Below, one piece after another: positions 12,901 to 63,312 of a stretch of 64,000 nt of DNA. A program made the translations under genes and the position numbers. Position 1 is the stretch's first letter. Each line of letters starts with the position of its first letter. The notes beneath the pieces are model-generated. The model was not told where the DNA came from, did no database searches, and was given only the letters and a program-made list of their open reading frames with translations. Source of the DNA: Holtermannia corniformis (taxonomy: Eukaryota > Basidiomycota > Tremellomycetes > Holtermanniales); NCBI GenBank assembly GCA_001599935.1, contig BCIJ01000007.1:568168-632167 (forward strand). The letters are read 5' to 3'.

Positions 12901-13650
12901 ATGTGCCTCAGGTCAACCTCATCAGCGATGCGCCAAGGCCGCACGCTGGTATTGGACATGTGCCTCTGCTTACCTGCGGCGACCAGAAGCTCTCACTTTC
13001 GATGAGACGCTGACACTGCATCAGGTACGCGTCGCACCCATCGTTGAACAACTATTCTGCTCTCATCCAAAACTACTTTCAACAAGAGACGGCCCCGTTC
13101 CCCGCCGTGCACATTACCGTCGACACCGAGTTGCAAGGTGAGTCACGCGAACAGCAAGCATGTGCTGTCCCGAGTGGAGTGCTGACTGTGCGCAGAAGGC
13201 TCATCGTCTGGCCTCGGCGTCAAGGGCTGGGTCAGCGCTCAGCTCGGGCTCAACCCCAAGCCTGAAAACTGCGTGTTCCTGCCCGTGCCCGTGAGCCTCA
13301 AGTACAGTGCCGAGGAGCGGGCGGGACTCGACCTGCTCACGTCGAGCGAGCAAGCGGCCAACCCGTCGCTGCCAGCTCTGCACACGCTCTCGACCTCGCT
13401 CGCGTCCCTGACCGAGCTGATTGACCAGGTCGAGTCGTATGTGTCGCGAGTTGCTGCGGGCGAGATTGAGGGCGACGCAGAGGTCGGACGGTATCTGCTC
13501 GACAGCGTCGGTCGCTGGGCCGACGTGACCGAGGGCGGTGACGAGGTCAAGAAGGGGCTGCAAGACACGCTCACCGTATCGTACCTCGCGAGCCTCGTCC
13601 GGAGTCAAGCCGAGCTCGCGGGCAGGCTCAACCTGCTGCAGCAGGCATAG
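9935..13650 (+). CDS. eIF3f, translation initiation factor 3 subunit F (MPN domain)
   Basis: A component of the eIF3 scaffold on the 40S subunit. Four exons (9935-9999, 10051-10347, 13025-13137, 13196-13650) give 309 residues. MPN-domain signatures are SISVHPSALAQILTHH, RVIGTLLGHRSETGAEIEV, AFAVPHSEDEHQCAVDM, EVIVGWYASHPSLNNYSAL and ALIQNYFQQETAPF. No complete JAMM metal motif is visible, as usual for this subunit. The C-terminal helical half carries LGLNPKPENCVFLPVPV and LTELIDQVESYVSRV, ending SQAELAGRLNLLQQA. The codon for Trp in IVGWYA is split by intron 2, which is 2,677 nt, against 51 and 58 nt for the others. Without splicing across it the gene looks like two unrelated fragments. Confidence 0.95.
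10348..13024 (+). other. Oversized intron 2 of eIF3f (2,677 nt)
   Basis: The donor is TCGGATG|gtgagt at 10348 and the acceptor gacactgcatcag|GTACGC at 13024. The splice restores the conserved GWYAS. Inside there is no frame with family resemblance; the longest open frames (about 190 and 136 codons) lack recognisable motifs. No direct or inverted terminal repeats were noticed. Texture is similar to the TIM50 intron, but no shared long word was found by eye. Confidence 0.8.
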
Positions 13651-13759
13651 GCGGAGGATGCGAGGGATGCATAGCATAGACGATGAGAACGCGCGGGACC
13701 TTTTCCTTGTCACCAGTTGCAGTCGAGTCGTCGAAACCGGGTCGTCCACTCTCAACACC

Positions 13760-16035
13760 ATGTCAAAAGCTGCTCAGGCCGCGCTCTTCCATCACCTGCA
13801 GCGCGCAGTGGGCCGCAGCCGGCGCCCAGGCCAAAAAGCGGCGTCGAGCAGCCGAAGAAAAAGTCCGAATGCACCGAGCGTGCGCAGGAGCTATGCAACA
13901 GCAGCAGCGGCCGCGTCTGTGAGAGACTCGACGGTGCCAGAGAGTACAGCTCTCAGTCCAGCTACACCGCTCGGACACGCGCTGCACGATGCCTACGACC
14001 TGCTCGAGACGGAAATCGGAGGCGATGGTGTCTGGACCGAGCGCCTTGCGGCGGCTCTGCGAGATTTGGAGGTTGGCAGGAGCGGTCGGATAGGCGGTCA
14101 GTTGCTATGCATATCGCGGGGGGATGCACGCTGATGTACGAATGCAGTATACGGTGACGAGCTCGCAGCACCTCATGATGTCGTTTCGGCTCTACTGCTG
14201 GATCCGCTCGCAGAGGACAAGGCGGCTCGCAAGGCGGTTGCGGACAGACATGTCGGCTATGAGGGCGATCAGTTTGAGATTCGGTGAGTGGTTTGGTCTG
14301 CAGGAGGTAGAGGCAGTTGACACTGTAGCTTTGCGCGAGATGCACAAAGAGACAGGGACGCTTTGGCCGTACCGGCGCCGTGGCTGCAGAGTACAGGTTT
14401 TGAGATTGTCGAAGTGCGACGTGAGTCACTTGGACTTTACCTTTGATCATACTGACAAGTAGCACAGCAAAGGACAACAGTCCCATCCCACTTTCAAACC
14501 TGCTTCGGACAGACTTGCCACTGCTCATCCTCGACCCCATCCGACTCCTCCAAGCACCCTCGCTTGCACCCGTCCTGCCTTTCCTGCTAGCGCACCCCCA
14601 CCTGCAGATCATCATCAACGGCGCCCTCCCCTCCTCGGCCACCGTCGAATCCACCACTCGCCGGCTGCACTCGCAACTGTCGGAGCTGGTCCCAGGATAC
14701 AGCGAAAACGTTGGCAAAATCGGCCTAGGCTTTGTGCGCGCAGACAAAGCCTTGTCCGCCATTGATGCCTTGGGCCGCGGGATCGGTCTCGACGCTAGCG
14801 TGGTAGAGGACCGGGCCGACGCAATCGAGCGCTTCCAACATGACTTTACCAGCAGCAACTTTGGCCCGTTGCAAGCTCAACTCTCGACATACCTTGCAGC
14901 CCTCCACCCTCTGACCCCACATGCAGTGCCCTCAAACCTACAAGTAGAGACGGCCAAGACGACGCTGAACGTCACGCTGGCGTACATCTCCAACGTCCTC
15001 CTCTCGTCATCTCGCGCCGCCCGCGCAGTCTTGTCATCTGCATCCGATCTCCGGACAGATGCTCACCGACGCGCCGAGCACGCTCGACAGAACTCGGTCG
15101 TGAGCTTGGGCATCAAAAGTGGCATCGTCGAGGGCAGCGTTGAGCAAGAGCTGGCCAGCAGCGAACGCGAGGTCCGGAGTCTGATGTCGAAGCGGTTGAG
15201 CTGGCGCAAGGTGTTAAGCGGCGCCGTGGATGATGTTGGAGCAGAGGTCGCTTCCGAAGTGCAAAAGCACTTTGGTCGAGGTCTGCAAGACCGGGTATGT
15301 CCCTTTGTCATTCAAGCGCGCATGTCTGATTGTTGTAGCTCGTGTTTGAGGCTGGCGAACTGGCTCTACTGCAGCGCGACCTTGCAGAGCGCGCCGATAG
15401 CTGCCTCGCCGAGCTCTCACCGTTTCACAACCGCTCGCAGGCATCCTCGTCCCAACCTTATCCCTTTCACTCGCCAATCCTGCTCAATCACCTCCAGACA
15501 TTAGCTCTCACGACCACCCAGCCCTCTCCCGCCACCCTCACCGCGCCGCTGCACCATCGACGAGCTCAACTGCTGACGTTTTCAGTGCCCAAACTGCACA
15601 ACCAGGCTCAGCGCGCAGTGCTCGAAACGTATTCCTACTCTGCTGCCTCGGCCGCCTGTTCCTGGGTCGCAGCCGTCCCAGGCGATCTCATGGATTGGTA
15701 CCCCGCTCTCGGCCTTGCCACCCTCGGCATCCTCGCCTCCGTTCGATGGGGCCAAGAACGCTGGGTGCGCGCTCGGAACGGCTTCTGGGCAGACTGGCAA
15801 CGGGTCGGACGCATGCTCAAGCAGGATCTAGAGGTATGCTCGACGAAAGCGATCGACAACTGACGCTACGCAGAGTAATTACAGAGACGCGCTGAACACT
15901 CAAGTGCTCGTCAAACCGCTGGCTGCGGCCGATGGCTTGGAGACGTTGGTCAACAAGCGGATCGAGAGACTGGACGCTATAGAGCACCGACGGGCGGTAC
16001 TGCATAGAAGAATACAGGGAGGCGCTAGTGCTTAG
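13760..16035 (+). CDS. Mmc1-like mitochondrial dynamin-fold protein
   Basis: Six exons (13760-14096, 14148-14283, 14329-14420, 14468-15294, 15339-15833, 15874-16035) join to 682 residues. The N-terminus is basic, amphipathic and ends RRSYATAAAAAS, a clear matrix-targeting presequence. The middle has LLLDPLAEDKAARKAV and a strand-loop LPLLILDPIRLLQAP. A long helical region follows, and the C-terminal part has two hydrophobic segments (YSAASAACSWVAAVPGDL and WYPALGLATLGILASV), then a basic helix. This order matches the fungal Mmc1 family, described in fission yeast as a dynamin-superfamily-like pseudoenzyme of the matrix side of the inner membrane linked to cristae shape. I do not see an intact GTPase P-loop. 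The family assignment is inference from architecture. Confidence 0.55.
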
Positions 16036-46481: not shown

Positions 46482-48660
46482 CTAGTGGTGGAACTGGTGT
46501 ATTGTCAGCTTTGACTCATTCCGAACCGTGAGTGACCTACCAATCGCAAGTTGTGGTGGACGAAAACGATGCCATAGTCGTCAGCCGCCTTGATGCACTC
46601 GGCATCCATGATAGAACCGCCCGGCGCGGCAATATACGACGTGCCGCTGCGCTTGGTGCGGTGCACGTTGTCTGGGAAGGGGAAGAAGGCGTCAGAAGCG
46701 CACGAGACACCCTTGAGTTGGGCCATGTGCTCTGCACGCTCCTGCTTGGTAAGAGCCTCGGGGACGGTGTCGAATAGCGATTCCCACTGGGCGCGCTCAG
46801 ACTCGTCAGCCTCAAAGGCCTGACCGGTGACGAAGAGGTCGATGGCGTTGGCCTTGTCGGCGCGCTTGGAGCCCTGCTTGAAAGGAAGGGCGAGGACGCG
46901 AGGGTGGTGACGAAGCCACCAGTTATCAGCCTTGTCACCAGCCAAGCGGGTGCAGTGAATGCGCGACTGTTGGCCGGCACCGAGGCCGATGACGGTACCG
47001 TTGAGAGCGTAGCACACACTGTTCGACTGGGTGTACTTGAGCACAAGGGTAGCGACGATCAAGTCGATGACGGCCTGCTTGGGGAGCTGCGCGACCGTCA
47101 GCTCTACTCGCTTGCAATCCGCAGAACAGACCTCCTTGTTCTTGGTGACAATGTTGGTGAAGAGCGACTCGTCGATCTTGGCGTCGTTGCGGCGCTGTTG
47201 CATCGAGATACCGTACACCTGACGCGTCTCGACGTCGGGCGGGGTGTAGTCGGGGTCCATCTGTCTCATCAGCTCAGGCACAGGTGCGCTGCATCGACGA
47301 ACTTGGAGCACACAATACTTGCCTCCCTTCTTCTTCTTCAGGATCTCGAGCGCCTCGGGTTCGTAACCGGGAGCAATGACACCGTCAGAGACCTCGCGCG
47401 AGATGATGCGCGCGGTAGGGGTGTCGACAGTATGCGAGAGGGCGATAAAGTCCCCGAACGAGGACATCCGGTCGGCCCCTGGCAATGTCAATATGCATCA
47501 AACGAGCAGCAACAAGACGCTTACCACGAGCACGTGCGTAAGCGTTGGCCAAGGGCGACAAGACCTTGAGGTCGTCAACGCCAAAGACTTTCTTTTCCCG
47601 CTCATCAAGCTCGAGGCCGACGGCAGCACCGGCGGGCGAGACGTGCTTGAACGAAGCGGCGGCGGGGAGAGGAGGGTTGAAAGCAGCGGCGAGCTCCTTG
47701 ACCAGCGCCCACGAGTTCAGGGCGTCAAGAAGGTTGATGTAGCCGGGCGAGCCAGACAGCACTGATTTCGTTAGCAGGTGATGAAGCAGACGAAGTGGAC
47801 TGACCGGTGACGGGCATCTCGCCTTGCTCGACGAAAGCCTGAGCGGGCTTCTGGTGAGGGTTGGCGCCGTAACGCAGGGGCAAGCGTTGCGTCTTGACAC
47901 CGGCACCAGCGCGAGAGTCTTCAGCCGAGTCGGATGAAGCGTACGTCTTGCGGAAGTAGTCGGCGATAGCCTCGTCATAAGCCTTGGTCGACTCGAAGGC
48001 CTTGAGCGCAAGGCCGCGCTTGGTTGTATCCGAAACCTGCTTGTCCTCCTTCCACTCGGACAAGATGAGGTCGTAGTCAGCCGGCGACGAGATGATCGAC
48101 ACACGGCCGTGGTTCTTGGCAGCTGCGCGGAGAAGGGTGACACCTCCAATGTCAATCTCCTCGATGGCGCCAGCAAGAGTGCAGTCGGGCTTCTGAGTCT
48201 GAAGCACGAAGGGGTAAAGGTTGCAAACGACAAGGATGATGGGCGAAATCGAGTTGGTCGCGAGATCCGCAAGGTCAGATGGGATGTCGCGCGAAAGGAT
48301 ACCTGGATACATCAGTACGTTTGTCGGTAACATCGGCCAGACGCACCGCCGTGCACGGCCGGGTGAAGCGTCTTGACGCGGCCACCAAGCATCTCCGGGG
48401 CCTTGGTGATAGACGAGACGTCCCTGATACAGTCAGCAAGCCAGATTGTGACGGTTGCATACTCACTCAATCTCCAAACCTGCCTCGCGGATCATCTTGG
48501 CCGTTCCGCCCGAACCCAACAGGCGGAAGCCGAGCTCCTTGAGGCCCTTGGCGAACGGCAAAAGGCCAGTCTTGTCATAAACAGAGAGGAGAGCTAGTAC
48601 TGTCAGTGACTAGAACGCAGCCTTGTACCCGCGCTGACCGATGGGAGCTTCAGACGACAT
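46482..48660 (-). CDS. ADE16/ADE17: ATIC: AICAR transformylase / IMP cyclohydrolase
   Basis: Carries out the last two steps of de novo IMP synthesis. The N-terminal IMP cyclohydrolase (MGS-like) domain starts [20 protein letters not shown], with [38 protein letters not shown] and NLYPF. The transformylase half has [94 protein letters not shown] and the closing [16 protein letters not shown]. The end FHH-stop lies in a separate 12-nt exon, 46482-46493, after intron gtaggt ... tacaccag; without it the protein would end in an unconserved [11 protein letters not shown]. About six exons. The product IMP feeds IMPDH, also in this window. Confidence 0.96.
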
Positions 48661-49007: not shown

Positions 49008-50151
49008 CTACTTTGCCGAGGACACTCCCTCCACCTCCCGGTACTGCGGCCGGGGTACAAATTTGGCAAAAAGTATTGTCTGCTGCATGAGCTTGCGGAG
49101 CATAGAATGAGGCATGACTGGCAACCAGCGGGAGATCCCAGCCGAGCTGTTTCGACTGTCAGTATAGCCGCCGGATGACAGTGGGAGCGACTGACCCACC
49201 GGCATATAGCACGGGATTGGGGTCTGCTTTGAGCACGGCGTTGAGGATCGTGTGAGCGACCTGTTCCGCCGTGGGATTGTTGCCGCTGCGCTCCTGCATG
49301 AAAGCTTTGCGCGCAGCTGTCATCTCCTCCCAGCCGTCCTTATAGTATGACTGAGGGCCCGGAGCGTAGATTGGGCATAGCTTGTTGCCGGCATACATTT
49401 CAGTTCTGACCCCGCCTACACGTATGAGCTGTCGCACTCGGGTAGACCGAGCAACTCACCTAGATTTAGGGTGATGACTTTGACGCCCAGGGGCTCTAGC
49501 TCGTAGCTGAGGCAGGTCGAGAGTGCGATCACGGCAGCCTGCAGGCGTCGGTCACTTGCGGCTGGCAGTTGAGACTTACTGACCTTGGAGGCGCTGTAGG
49601 CTCCATTCCACGGCAGACCGATACTCGCCGTGCTTCCGACATTCAAGATCTTGCCCGGTACACCTGCGAGGCCCGCATTGACAAGGTATGGAGCGAAGGC
49701 CTGTGTCACTGCTACCTTTGCGAAGACGTTGACCTCGAACATGGTTCGCATGGCGTCCAACGAAGCATCAAGCACGGGGTGGAGTCCAGCAACTCCAGCC
49801 TGGTCAGCGTCAGTACCCTCGTAGCCCTGGCATGATGGCTTCATCGATGCCACTAACGTTGTTGACCAGCAAGTGCAGCTGCCCGCCAGTGACTTCCTCA
49901 ACCTGTCTGGTCGCCGCCGCAATGTCCTCGGAATTAGTCACGTCCAAGCGCAGCAGCTACGGCACTCTCAATACTTGACAAGGTGGAGTCTAAGGACTTA
50001 CTCGACACCCGGCCGCCTCCAGCGCGGCCATCGTCTCGACCTTACGAGCAGTTGCAAAGACTCGCCATCCGCGCTTGACTAGCCCAAGCGCCAGCTGAGC
50101 GCCAACGCCATTTGGCTCCGAGCACCCAGTAATCAGCGCAGTGAGTGTCAT
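49008..50151 (-). CDS. Short-chain dehydrogenase/reductase, Ayr1-like
   Basis: Classical SDR. The cofactor site is LITGCSEPNGVGAQLALGL with VFATARKVETM favouring NADPH; LLRLDVTNSEDIAAAT and LLVNNAGVAGLHPV follow, the NNAG being restored by removing an intron (gttagt ... gctgaccag). The catalytic Tyr-x3-Lys is in GSTASIGLPWNGAYSASK. The overall pattern resembles Ayr1, the NADPH-dependent 1-acyl-dihydroxyacetone-phosphate reductase of ER and lipid droplets. The C-terminus (LRKLMQQTILFAKFVPRPQY) contains a short amphipathic or hydrophobic helix that could mediate membrane attachment. About five exons. SDR identity is firm; the Ayr1 substrate is inference. Confidence 0.85.
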
Positions 50152-50885
50152 GACAAGCTGAGAGTAGCGTTGCTCGCCAAGCGTCAGCCATGGCTAGACT
50201 TGTTATAGAGGCCAGCTTGCCGGATCGGCCTTCGGCCATCGGTCATCGGTCGAATGTCGTGATGACTGAGCTTCTGTGATAGCTGACTAACCTAACTCCC
50301 ATCAGTTCTCACGCGTTTCGTCTACATCGCCACGCGGCGGACGATTGCCGTCGTGGCTTCGGAGAAATCCAGGACGACCGAAACATGTTAGGCACGGTAG
50401 AGTTCGTGCACCAGTATCGTGGAAGCAGACTGGGTGGACGGGCATGAGCCGCAACGTTCAGTGGCAACGTGACATGAGGTCCCATGTTTTTGGAGCCTCT
50501 CGCAACAGTGAACCACACTGAAGATTGCCTCTCTGTTCGAAAGACTACGCCGCCGGCAATAAATCACCTTTCCCGGTAACCTCCTTTCACTCCTCGACGA
50601 CTGAGCAGTTGATGTCAACTCAAGCCAACCTACTCAGGAGACGAGGACGCCTCAGGAGTCGGCTTGTCGATTGATTGACGTCCTTTGCGTCTTATATCAT
50701 GTCTGAAACACAGCACGGCCCCTCCTTTCGCCCTAAGCAAGCGTTATTGTCTTGGCGGCTTGACGGCTGTTGTATCCCGAGTGCAACGTTGCGAGCACCA
50801 CCAGGTCTCTTTCAAACGTCTTTCTTTGCACCTCACACTCATTCACATATCAGGCTCGACGCTACTTGCGTAGCAACCTTTGACC
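50152..50885. other. Divergent intergenic region upstream of LPMO 2
   Basis: 734 bp between the starts of the dehydrogenase (minus) and LPMO 2 (plus). No supported gene; presumably both promoters. Confidence 0.55.
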
Positions 50886-51922: not shown

Positions 51923-52545
51923 GCGGTGAACTGTGTACTGGTCAAGATGCACTGGATGCATTCTTGATTCCCATGAGTCACACTGCGGTCTGCTGTCGCA
52001 CGGCCAGTCATTGGCATATGCTCATGACTGGCATGCGAGCGCTCGCCGTGAATGAAGAAGCGCTGCACTGACAATCTCGTATTCTACGTATCGGCCGAAC
52101 GAGATGTCATTGACGTGTCAGACCATTCCGATTGTACTAATGATATTGGCTTTTGAACAACGGCATCGAATGCTAGTGACGGTGGCGGACCCGCACAGCG
52201 CCAGTCACACAGGCATACTAGCCTTGTTATACGGGCAAGCTCTTCGATGAAAGTATACGGCGAGGTATCATAACAGGTCACCATCTCGGATACACACAGC
52301 CTTTCTCCATCCTTCCAGACTGCCTCCGACGCAACGCCGCGAAGTCGCAGCGTAGCGTGCACGTGTTGACTGGTAGAGTCAGCGATCAGCAAGGTGGCAT
52401 ACAGGATAACACGTACCAGGCCGCTAATATTCTGGCGAGGGGTTTGGTCAGCTATGTTACACGGACGAGCGGGATATAGGAGAACCCACTGAGAACTGCA
52501 GGAACGTCAGCTGAGTTGATAGAAATCACACAATGATAGGACTCA
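51923..52545. other. Convergent intergenic region
   Basis: 623 bp between the 3' ends of LPMO 2 and PMP3. A 102-codon minus-strand ORF (52084-52392) has no family features. Probably 3' UTRs. Confidence 0.5.
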
Positions 52546-53404
52546 CTAATCTGTATGCCGGAAAGAAGCCCAGGTTAGCACATTCAAGATCAGCACACGG
52601 GAACAGAGACTTGCGTAGAGCGCGTGGACTACGACCAGGTCAGCTGCGATGGCAAGACTATGCGAAGGAGCTCACTGATTCCAGGGATGTAACCGAGGAC
52701 TGTTGGGCAAACGCACGTATCAGCTCAGCCCTTATATGGCAGGTAGCGCGCAACGTACTGGTACTGTGAACATTGTGCAAAGAAGCCTGGTGAGTACCAC
52801 CCTTGATATAGGTGACGAATTCGACTTACAGCCTGTCAAGGATCGCGTCAGCACGTGTTTACAGCCAGACGGTGTGACGACCGCTCCCAAGCCTGTGCAT
52901 AACAGCACAGGAACAGAAACGCGAGCTCGACAACACCGCCAACGAGCTATCAGACCGAGGAATGTACTCACAGAATGTTGATCAAAAGATCCGCGCCGCA
53001 GCTATGAGATTTGATCAATTTTCATCGGTTCCAGCACCAGGCATATAGGTACTGACCCGCGCTCTGTGCATTGTCAGCCCACGCGAGGAACTGTACTAGA
53101 CTTACCGAGGAAGACACCGAGAGGCTTGAGGAGAGGAGGTTAGCTGGCCTATTCTTGGCAATGCCGTCATGGGACCAACCGGGAGGATGACCGCGAGAAC
53201 TAGATAGGTTCAGTGAGTACAGTACGGCGCAGAGAGAGGCAGTGCGTACCGATCTTGAGGATGTCGCTTGAGAGGAGGACGAGGTCAGCGTGAGACGCGG
53301 CCGTGACGGTTAGAAGGCGTAGAATTTACGCACCTGCAGGCTGTGAGGTGTCAGCATCTCGTACTCTGATTGGCATTGGACTGGTGTCACTCACTGAAGG
53401 CCAT
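52546..53404 (-). CDS. PMP3: PMP3-type plasma-membrane proteolipid, 12 exons for 54 residues
   Basis: A two-span proteolipid of the UPF0057/Pmp3 family that affects membrane potential and salt tolerance. Exons: 53395-53404, 53334-53340, 53250-53266, 53180-53199, 53106-53124, 53057-53063, 52972-53001, 52830-52832, 52759-52763, 52676-52699, 52611-52628, 52546-52550. They sum to 165 nt, exactly 54 codons plus stop, the normal family length. The protein shows SDILKIVLAVILPPLGVFLE, RGCGADLLINILLTILGYIP and GIIHALY, matching the family at nearly every position. LLT in INILLTILG depends on a 3-nt exon (GCT) and a 5-nt exon (TACCA), each between canonical ag and gtaagt/gtacgt. The extreme C-terminus (AN-stop) is the least certain part. 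Confidence 0.88.
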
Positions 53405-59904: not shown

Positions 59905-61044
59905 ATGCCGCCAAGAGGCTTCAGAACAGGCTCGGTACGGTACAGCCCATCCCTCTTGTGTCCGTCTAACACGCACCAGCCCGCGAGCCGACCATCCAAC
60001 ACTGCGTTCCACCCAGCGGCCGACACGACCACGTTCAAAGACTTGCTCCTGTTCGAAGAGCGGCTCAAGATGAATGCACAGATGCTCAGAAAGCGGAAAC
60101 GGCGGTACGAGGGTGGGTCCAGTGTCGAATGCAAACGACGAGCTGATCACGATGGATCAGCGTTCTTGGTCGGGCTCGTAGCGTTCATCGTGCTGCTCGC
60201 TCATCGGCTCGTGTTTGAGCCGCCGGATGTGAGGGATCACTATGCGGCGAAGGCGAGCTGGCTGACGCTGTGTAGCATACCTTGGTCCGATACCTGGCTC
60301 AAGGTACGCTAGCCGTTGCGCTCGTCACGCTCGTTCTGTTCTTTGCAAGCGGCATGTACGAGGAGCGGATCCGTTATGCAAACCGGTCAGTCTCTCGTAC
60401 TCTCGCCTTGAGCTGCTGGACACTGAGCTGACCACGATAGATATGTCCCACACGCCAACAAGGCCCTTCGGTCCTTCAACATGCACCTCAACATGCGCCG
60501 ACCTACGTTCTCCCTACTCCCCGCTCGCTTCCGCCCATCCCCCCCGACGGCCTCTGCCTCTCCACCCCCATCAACGGCATCGACCAAGTCTGCAACCCGG
60601 TCAACATCCATCATCCCCCCCATCCCTCCGACCACCAACCCTCGGGGCGAGCTCATCTTTTCGAGCCGCGTCGAAAAGGCGTTCAAAGAAGGCTACGAGC
60701 GCTACCGTGCTGCATTCGAGCGGAGGCGCGAGGAGCGCATGCGAGGCGCCACGGCCGCTGCCGGCTGGCGATGGAGCTCGGTCTTGTCGATCGGTGCAAA
60801 GGGAGCGCAAGCGCCGCTCGCCCGGCTGGGAACACCGCCGTTACGGACCCCGAGTCCTGCTGGTCGTGCGCTCTCGCCAAGCGCAGGCCCAGGCAGTAAG
60901 CTTCGAGCGCAGGTCGACGAAAAGCAGCAGGGTCCAATCCCGAGCCACATCTTGCAGTCGGGAGCGCAAAAGGCGAACCGCGAGCGCTCAGAGAGCTACA
61001 GCTTTGTCTTCCAGGGCACGGACAAGAGTCCGGTTGGGTCATAA
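59905..61044 (+). CDS. SPO7: Spo7, regulatory subunit of the Nem1-Spo7 phosphatase
   Basis: Nem1-Spo7 in the nuclear/ER membrane dephosphorylates and activates the phosphatidate phosphatase Pah1. Five exons. The N-terminal helix is TTTFKDLLLFEERLKMNAQM and LRKRKRRYE; two membrane segments follow, FLVGLVAFIVLLAHRLVF and TLAVALVTLVLFFASGMY, and then the family box EERIRYANRYVPHANKALRS plus FNMHLNMRRP. All three splices needed for this chain keep phase. The C-terminal ~170 residues are longer than in yeast Spo7: a Pro/Ser-rich stretch, a charged helix (KAFKEGYERYRAAFERRREE) and an end SYSFVFQGTDKSPVGS. It is 160 bp downstream of RRP43 on the same strand. Confidence 0.9.
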
Positions 61045-61133
61045 CCATGCATCTTTCCTATCATGAATATATACACACTGACTTTGTCGTCTATCGTTGC
61101 GCAGCGCCTGGCACCTCGCCCGCATCAAGTGGC

Positions 61134-63312
61134 CTACTTGGTGCTCGCACCGTCTTCGGACGAAAGGTAGGCGTCTGCGCCGGCCAACTCGTCTTCGTCG
61201 TCCCACGCACCGACCGTAAACTTTTTCAACTGCTTGCCGACCCGAGCCCCCGCCGGAGTCGCAACGACCGTATTCGAGACCGTGCTCCAATGAGTCTCGC
61301 GGAACGTCTCGTACGAGATGATGTTGCTGCGCGGAACAGACCTCGATCTAGGCCGAGTACCGTACGACGCGATGGAACTCGCGCTTGCGCTTGCGCTTGA
61401 GGGGGGAGCGAGGAGCGGTCCGGCCTCGCCGAGGTCGGGGCGAGAAAGCAGGCCTGCGCGCTCAACGCGCTCGCGGGGCGAGTGGAGGCGTAGGGTGGAG
61501 AACCACCAGAGGACGGCAATGAAGGAGAACGCGAGCCAGATGATAGATAGCCCGTGGCCAGAGGGAAGCGTGGTGGACCAGGACCAGAGATAGCTGTCGT
61601 CGTCAGCGCTGCAAGTGTGCACGGAAGAACGACTCACCCTGAGAAGACTGGAGCGAGCATCCGACCGATACTGTAAAAACTTGCGATCAACCCGTTGACT
61701 CTGCCAAAGCATCCCGCCGGGCTGCGATCGGAGATTGTGCATTCAAACGCGCTGCGATGATCAGTTTACGAGCGCTGTACACGACCCGAGCACACTCACG
61801 AGTAGGAAGTTTCTCCAACTTCATAACAGATCAAGACGATCGGCAAGATGCACCACGTCATGGGCCCGGCGCGGCCTTCGTAGCGCGACGTGATTTGCAC
61901 CAGCAAGATGCTCAAGAAGAGCAAGACGTGCGCGAACGAAGTGATGCGGAGGGTCGTGTAGTTGCCAATCCTGTCGTATAGTCGAGGCAGAACGGTGTGA
62001 CCCATGATGATACCCATGACAGACGAGGCTGCCAACATCAAGCCGATTGCTTTGGGCTGGGAGACGTTAGCGAACACTTCAGCGCTGCCGAGGTAAGCGA
62101 CGTACTGTGAGACCGAGGCCGCCGTCCTCGAACGGTGCGCTTGCAAACATCATGAAGCTAGCGCAGTATATCATCGAGACAAAGGCGAGGACTGAGCAGT
62201 CAGCGTGCTGATCTGATCGCCCGAGCTGACAACTCACAAGAACCGACGAGGAGCGGGTAGCGCAACGTTCGACGTTTGACAAGCGCCAAGATGGAAAGCT
62301 CGGCTGGGTCACCTTCAATTGGCTCGTCCAGAGTCTTGATGAGCTCGGCCAGTCGGGGATCGTCGACGCCAGTCTTCATCGACGCCGGAGGGTGGCCATG
62401 GGTCTACAGACGTCAGTGTGGTGAGATTTAGCAGATCAACGGACCTCGGGGAGCCAGCGCCAGACGGCAACGGCCGCGAGGGCAGGGCAAACGGCGGCAC
62501 CGAGAGCAGAGAGCAAGTACGGGTTACGCCTCCAGAGCGCGTGATCGAACAGCAAGGGCATGGTGTCGGCCGGATGAGCGAGCAGGCCGCCAATGAGGGG
62601 ACCGATAGCGGCGCCGATCGGCCAGGCGGGTCCCATGGTCCCCGACACTACATGCGTCAGCTACCCGTCCCTCTGGAACGCAAGCGCACTCACTCTGCGT
62701 CACCTCGCTGTCAACAATCAGTTCATACTGCACCGTCCTGACCAGGACGCTGACAGCGCCAAGGATGCCCGCTGAAAATTTGTCAGTCACTATCACAATC
62801 GCAACACGTAAGCACTCACAAATACTCCGGCTCGCGATCGCCCAGCAGAGGCTCTGGCTGAAGCCGAGGGAGATGCTCGCAATGGTAAAGGCGGCAAGGC
62901 CAACGACGAGGAGGTTCTTGCGGCCGTAGATGTCGGCCAAGTAGCCCCAGAACGGCGAAAAGATGGCTGCCAAGTCAGCGGGTGGCGAATCGCGCTATGT
63001 GAAATTTACCTTCTGTAAAGACGAGCGAGGACTCCTGTGCGGCGTGTCAGGACTGTTCCGGCTTGACAGGGTCGGGAACGTCGGTGGTAACTCACGATCA
63101 AGCCGGCATAGCACGCGGCAGAGGCTGGCGAGTAGCCAAAGCCAGTGACCATTTCGTTGACGAATGGCATGCTGAACCCGCGTCAGCCCGTGTCTCCATT
63201 AGGTGGATCAAGCGACATACATGAAGAAGATGATGATCCCCTCGGATATCTTGCAGAGCGCCAAGACGGACACTGCGCGGCTGGGGTAGCCGGCAGAGAC
63301 GGACGAGGGCAT
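61134..63312 (-). CDS. Major facilitator superfamily transporter
   Basis: Plasma or vacuolar membrane transporter with about twelve spans. The start MPSSVSAGYPSRAVSVLALC leads into KISEGIIIFFIMPFVNEMVT (span 1), then SPASACYAGLIESSLVF and the MFS motif A GYLADIYGRKNLLVVG between spans 2 and 3. Later segments are GPAWPIGAAIGPLIGGLLAH, SALGAAVCPALAAVAVW, GLMLAASSVMGIIMGHTVLP, ILPIVLICYEVGETSYSAF, GRVNGLIASFYSIGRMLAP and SIIWLAFSFIAVLWWFSTL. The pattern is close to the zinc-induced-facilitator/YCR023C-like fungal branch. The cytoplasmic C-tail is long and ends SSEDGASTK. About ten exons, all short gt-ag introns. Substrate unknown. Confidence 0.88.

Follow-up and report, generated by a model that had tools for sequence, protein, structure and literature searches.

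How a protein of 57 residues could be assembled from fourteen exons, some of them only 3 to 6 nucleotides long, is the question raised by the locus examined here. Proteins of the Pmp3 family have two membrane helices, are located in the plasma membrane, and influence the membrane potential or the tolerance of salt. An intact gene of this family, with 14 predicted exons, very probably lies on the minus strand at positions 52424-53404 of the window, by which we mean the whole stretch of 64,000 nt that was analyzed. The window belongs to a eukaryotic assembly of 20.2 Mb in 55 contigs, and the region was examined on both strands.

Gene models were built with a custom spliced aligner. Its score has one part for codons, which are compared to a protein profile, and another for introns, which are judged by donor, acceptor, branch motif, and length. 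A homolog search at E 0.001 returned 2229 proteins, and the profile consists of the 88 homologs, among the best 120 of these, that are exactly 57 aa long. The intron terms were learned from 21 other genes of the genome, with 129 introns in all; the models of those genes had been built with a generic splice consensus, and the independence of the training is in that respect incomplete. Introns were limited to 160 nt, control models included, and longer introns would escape. The trained aligner, unaided, returned the identical 14-exon chain given in Table 1, with a score of 142.8.

Table 1. Predicted exons and selected introns of the Pmp3 gene, in window coordinates
Feature	Position	Strand	Description
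Exon 1	53395..53404	-	10 nt, ATGGCCTTCA; 0/2000 shuffles match exons 1-2
Exon 2	53334..53340	-	7 nt, CCTGCAG; donor masking costs 21.6 nats
Exon 3	53250..53266	-	17 nt; returned by spliced aligner
Exon 4	53180..53199	-	20 nt; the intron after it (gttggt...aag) is the weakest in the gene
Exon 5	53106..53124	-	19 nt; returned by spliced aligner
Exon 6	53057..53063	-	7 nt, AGCGCGG; 0/2000 shuffles; masking costs 28.9 nats
Exon 7	52972..53001	-	30 nt, longest exon
Intron 7	52833..52971	-	139 nt, longest intron; gtgagt...gctgac...cag
Exon 8	52830..52832	-	3 nt, GCT, in gacag/GCT/gtaagt; masking costs 22.4 nats
Exon 9	52759..52763	-	5 nt, TACCA, in cacag/TACCA/gtacgt; masking costs 21.7 nats
Exon 10	52676..52699	-	24 nt; returned by spliced aligner
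Exon 11	52615..52628	-	14 nt, TCCACGCGCTCTAC (18 nt in the first-pass annotation)
Intron 11	52551..52614	-	64 nt, GC-AG; gcaagt...gctaac...cag; GC donor masking costs 21.8 nats
Exon 12	52547..52550	-	4 nt, ATTA; 0/1500 shuffles (exons 12-14 together)
Exon 13	52490..52495	-	6 nt, TTCTCA; masking costs 12.1 nats
Exon 14	52424..52431	-	8 nt, AATATTAG, includes TAG stop

The gene of 981 nt comprises 14 exons and 13 introns, with 807 nt of intron and a coding sequence of 174 nt that specifies 57 aa (58 codons with the stop). From 5' to 3', the exons measure 10, 7, 17, 20, 19, 7, 30, 3, 5, 24, 14, 4, 6, and 8 nt. Thirteen of the 14 are shorter than 30 nt and bounded by splice signals, 8/14 are 10 nt or less, and the mean is 12.4 nt. 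Twelve of the 13 introns are 42-67 nt long and the remaining one is 139 nt; 12 are of the GT-AG class and one is GC-AG. With the exception of the GC donor, the donors adjoining the 3- to 5-nt exons are strong (gtgagt, gtaagt, gtacgt, gtgagt). A CTRAC motif is found near the 3' end of 9/13 introns, as compared to 77/129 control introns, and is absent from the last 45 nt of introns 3, 6, 8, and 9. Introns 2 and 4 end in an AAG acceptor, and intron 4, whose donor is weak, stands at the 4th percentile among control introns; these acceptors, this donor, and the four introns lacking CTRAC count against the model. The predicted junction strings are AACATTCT-GCT-TACCA-TCCTCGG around microexons 8 and 9, and CTCTAC-ATTA-TTCTCA-AATATTAG at the 3' end.

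A first-pass annotation of this locus had proposed a Pmp3 gene of 12 exons and 54 aa that ended at 52546. Its family assignment is borne out by the PF01679 profile (88.6 bits, with a cut-off of 22.9), and its first ten exons, from the 10-nt exon 1 to the 24-nt exon 10, recur letter for letter at the coordinates it gave. It had also held that the 3-nt GCT and the 5-nt TACCA are both required, and this is supported: when the donor behind either one is masked, some 22 nats are lost and the conserved LLT motif is disrupted. The 3' end, the exon count, and the protein length did not survive, and now stand at 52424, 14 exons, and 57 aa. The two last exons first proposed (18 and 5 nt, AAT-TAG, ALYAN-stop) fit none of the C-termini of the 57-aa homologs, and were dropped because the family C-terminus disagrees with them. 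Of the 88 homologs of 57 aa (from the best 120 of 2229), 78 end in IILKY and the other 10 in a near variant of it (IIFKY, IILKF, IIFRY, VILKY, or IIFKF). All 88 have I at residue 54; at residue 53, 87 have I and one has V. The DNA provides a matching path, TCCACGCGCTCTAC/gcaagt...cag/ATTA/gtgagt...cag/TTCTCA/gtgggt...cag/AATATTAG, which reads IHALY-IILKY-stop free of gaps, and gcaagt is the usual donor of GC-AG introns. The Pfam scores are near-equal, at 87.7 bits for the first-pass version and 88.6 bits for the corrected one, so that Pfam alone hardly tells the two apart; the C-terminal residues do.

The fit of the gene model is not that of random sequence. Dinucleotide shuffling of the full locus, repeated 600 times, gave scores with a mean of -37.1, a standard deviation of 3.6, and a maximum of -23.3, and 206 tiles taken from elsewhere in the window, with both strands included, reached at most -29.7; the real locus scores 142.8. 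In local tests, flanking exons were fixed and the sequence between them was shuffled. The real score was reached by none of 2000 shuffles for GCT plus TACCA, for exons 1-2, or for exon 6, and by none of 1500 for exons 11-14 or for exons 12-14. Seven elements were masked one at a time, with gaps allowed, and the loss was between 9.3 and 28.9 nats. The least certain exon is exon 12 (ATTA), for which the best rival scores 9.3 nats lower. What is observed at this locus is its sequence, a spliced reading frame, a family match, and a non-random fit.

Two features of the method bear on how such exons are to be judged. With distant references the aligner overfits and can invent exons of 2-3 nt: its cytochrome c model contains three such exons (2, 3, and 3 nt), and that of Rps29 contains one (2 nt). 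Tiny exons therefore demand tight homology, as is available at Pmp3. The microexon-like motif YAG, 1-12 nt, GTVNGT occurs 6 times per 981 nt at Pmp3 and up to 7 times in shuffles, and since this density is matched by shuffles and at three further sites of the window, the motif count alone is no marker of the gene. The three sites, with 6 motifs per 981 nt each, lie at 49201-50381 and 13401-14381 on the plus strand and at 60820-61800 on the minus strand; these could reflect coincidence or further genes in fragments.

Four other explanations were weighed against the 14-exon model. The chain could be a chance construct, in that freely placed tiny exons would let any protein be threaded, and the overfitting with distant references lends this some color; with the 600 shuffles, the 206 tiles, and all five local tests below the real score, its probability is negligible. 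Alternatively, the locus could be a decaying or unspliced pseudogene whose coding pieces are relics, while the paralogs at C20 and C15 do the real Pmp3 work. Zero frameshifts or stops over 57 codons, with 55/57 residues kept, speak against decay, the C20 paralog is more distant, and a DNA search of the genome gave no second copy of the gene; the extreme fragmentation and the presence of two paralogs speak for it, and we regard it as improbable.

The two remaining alternatives keep the gene and change its splicing. If ATTA were unused, exon 11 would be 4 nt longer (TACGCAA/gtctct) and a 115-nt intron would lead to TTCTCA, giving ALYAILKY in a protein of 57 aa from 13 exons. Such a model has a GT donor in place of the GC donor, was picked by the first aligner run, in which GC donors were disallowed, and scores 133.45 when the exon 12 donor is masked. 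It was superseded by the 14-exon model once GC donors were allowed, and lies 9.3 nats below it; it puts A at residue 53, where the 88 homologs (among the best 120 of 2229) have I in 87, V in 1, and A in 0, and the stretch that it skips holds a full acceptor, a gtgagt donor, and a CTRAC in each half. We consider it unlikely, if marginally less so than a pseudogene. Fainter still is the prospect of a single 11-nt exon, GCTTGGGAGCG, in place of GCT and TACCA, to give INILLGSVLGYIPG. This exon is in frame and follows a good acceptor (tgcacag); however, the product would be 58 aa, with one residue inserted where the 57-aa homologs (among the best 120 of 2229) are gap-free, its donor, gtcgtc, has no G at +5, and it needs an intron of 182 nt, above the 160-nt limit of the control models. 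Since that limit by itself excludes the 182-nt path from the aligner, the rejection of GCTTGGGAGCG rests on the inserted residue and the weak donor.

The 14-exon model yields a product that covers the PF01679 profile at positions 1-49 of 49 and is identical at 55/57 residues to Pmp3 of Kwoniella shandongensis and, likewise, at 55/57 to that of Saitozyma podzolica. In length, and in matching free of gaps, it agrees with the close members of the family. We are highly confident, on these sequence grounds, that this is the canonical Pmp3 gene, in intact form, of an intron-rich basidiomycete, most likely a tremellomycete. A divergent tubulin of the genome had fungal best hits of about 79% identity, none from a close species, and allows placement no finer than a probable tremellomycete. 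The predicted 57-aa product is presumably a two-helix plasma-membrane proteolipid.

The genome itself is permissive of small exons, and Pmp3 is an outlier within it. In the 21 control genes, coding sequence totalling 11,505 nt is interrupted by 129 introns, or 11.2 per kb (range 4.9-24.4), and Pmp3 holds 74.7 per kb against the control maximum of 24.4. Exons of 10 nt or less make up 10/150 control exons, some of which are possibly aligner artefacts, and short introns and very small exons appear in alignment models elsewhere in the genome, the exons measuring 5 nt in beta-tubulin and 7 nt in both calmodulin and cyclophilin. Eight short-gene models, which are less reliable, gave 5.0-34.5 introns per kb; they were kept out of the 21 controls, and the 2-3 nt exons of Rps29 and cytochrome c were judged to be overfitting. 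Among 30 candidate loci, L061, L071, L075, and L081 scored below 60 and went untraced. Duplicates, models below 50% identity (L065, L067, L078, and L080), and the L002 paralog were excluded from the controls, and the L001 paralog model, which is within the control set, misses its first intron.

Plain similarity search misses the Pmp3 gene: when the genome was searched in six frames with Pfam, two Pmp3 paralogs came up and the canonical gene did not. Universal small genes can in this manner seem absent, with only their paralogs listed. The C20 Pmp3-like paralog has five exons of 16, 55, 14, 79, and 13 nt (aligned part), and an informal comparison of exon lengths by hand found no intron position that it has in common with Pmp3, the nearest being 1 nt off. 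L001, at 1270-1670, is a divergent Pmp3 paralog (MAYTSSTGDILLYAIALFVPP...) with five exons of ordinary size in its aligned part, and L002, around 1501-1575 on the minus strand, is another paralog with a Pmp3 domain, more distant than the first and interrupted by several short introns. An introner-like origin of the Pmp3 introns, which would leave many copies of introns similar in sequence, was not supported, in that a DNA search of the genome with the whole gene matched the Pmp3 locus alone; direct repeats of at least 14 nt were absent, and the 78 intron pairs gave a maximum score of 9.5 versus 8.5 in one shuffled set.

Other genes were noted in the window and on its contig. On the plus strand of the window, an open reading frame at 2595-3881 matches IMP dehydrogenase (PF00478) at 301.5 bits and includes a CBS domain, and on the minus strand, two at 46508-48311 match AICARFT/IMPCHase (PF01808) and are probably exons of one purine-synthesis gene. 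Tandem ubiquitin repeats lie at G000:C7:111522-112761, on the contig shared with the window. Scanning the window for Rfam families and tRNAs gave no matches.

The RNA of the Pmp3 gene is probably spliced in the predicted form, and the arrangement of its parts suggests how. Exons of less than about 50 nt are poorly recognized across the exon, and the proposed route is that the splice sites are recognized across short introns instead, where Prp40 forms the bridge from the 5' splice site to the branch site (PMC8378409). Recognition across the exon would fail for exons of 3-7 nt, and the unit recognized is therefore most likely each short intron, its 5' splice site being bridged to the branch site and 3' splice site, in keeping with the intron-definition splicing that the first-pass annotation proposed; the length of 12/13 introns, at 42-67 nt, suits this mode. 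The acceptor and donor around the 3-nt exon nearly touch, such that both introns could hardly be handled together; the introns around a 3- to 5-nt exon would then be removed one after another. Most likely, introns 8 and 9 would be the first to go and the 139-nt intron 7 the last, and GCT would by then belong to a larger exon. Matches to the FF domain, a domain of Prp40, were found at two loci of the genome, which are compatible with Prp40 at the level of a domain match.

Retention of introns 1-3 or 5-8 leads to an early stop at codons 6-45, and skipping of 8/12 internal exons shifts the frame. Errors of splicing mostly spoil the product, which favors constitutive splicing and not protein variety. 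A more far-reaching idea, which we offer tentatively and think rather doubtful, is that Pmp3 would rank, across all organisms, with the coding sequences densest in introns (13 in 174 nt, or one per 13 nt), that its chains of 3-, 5-, and 6-nt exons could be processed only by intron removal in a fixed order, and that its output might be set by slow, ordered splicing whose failures are mostly truncated or shifted proteins; the gene would then be a natural reporter of the fidelity of intron definition, and perhaps a stress-responsive switch. Pmp3 offers a compact natural test of minimum exon size and packing density. Confirmation by cDNA would establish a gene of less than 1 kb with adjacent exons of 3 and 5 nt, a chain of 4 and 6 nt, and a GC-AG intron, all within one constitutive transcript, in which ordered intron removal would be directly testable.

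Compared to other Pmp3/UPF0057/RCI2 proteolipids (PF01679), the predicted protein is alike in length and sequence, and any difference would lie in gene layout alone. The titles and abstracts surveyed, with the subscription literature mostly outside them, contained no Pmp3 gene of such structure and no record of intron density. Basidiomycetous-yeast bglA genes resemble Pmp3 in having, by cDNA, many introns of about 60 nt, exons as short as 5-6 bp, and GC-AG introns beside microexons (PMC9142197); these include a 5-bp exon, established by cDNA, in Sirobasidium magnum and microexons flanked by GC-AG introns in bglA of Rhodotorula minuta (PMC9142197). They differ in degree, having 0-10 exons of less than 30 bp among 7-22, with means of 94-281 bp (PMC9142197), against 13/14 and a mean of 12.4 nt in Pmp3. 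Cryptococcus neoformans likewise has introns of about 56 nt, nearly all of its genes split, and exons down to 1 bp, whereas its exons have a median length of 194 nt and its coding sequence holds 3.35 introns per kb (PMC3990503), as against 74.7 per kb in Pmp3. Another tremellomycete, Phaffia, has 7.5 introns per gene (PMC5103461).

At the level of the gene, the nearest likeness is to the micro-exon genes of schistosomes, which encode small proteins mostly by exons of less than 36 bp (PMC4671649). In those genes, 26/33 microexons are multiples of 3, which has been read as favoring alternative splicing (PMC4671649); in Pmp3, the internal exons divisible by 3 number 4/12, no more than the one third given by chance. 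The schistosome arrangement of symmetric microexons between long end exons is also not found in Pmp3, whose ends are of 10 and 8 nt (coding part). Plant microexons are similar in being constitutive exons of a few nucleotides with strong GTRAGT donors that annotation missed (PMC4674806, PMC8831610); Arabidopsis APC11 has a 1-nt exon (PMC4674806), and plant 1-nt exons adjoin strong GTRAGT donors (PMC8831610). Unlike Pmp3, the plant examples are of one or two isolated microexons per gene (PMC4674806, PMC8831610). Microexons of 1-6 nt and adjoining GC-AG introns are thus already published, and Pmp3 is an extreme case of them; what sets Pmp3 apart is the predicted density, with nearly the whole gene made up of putative microexons.
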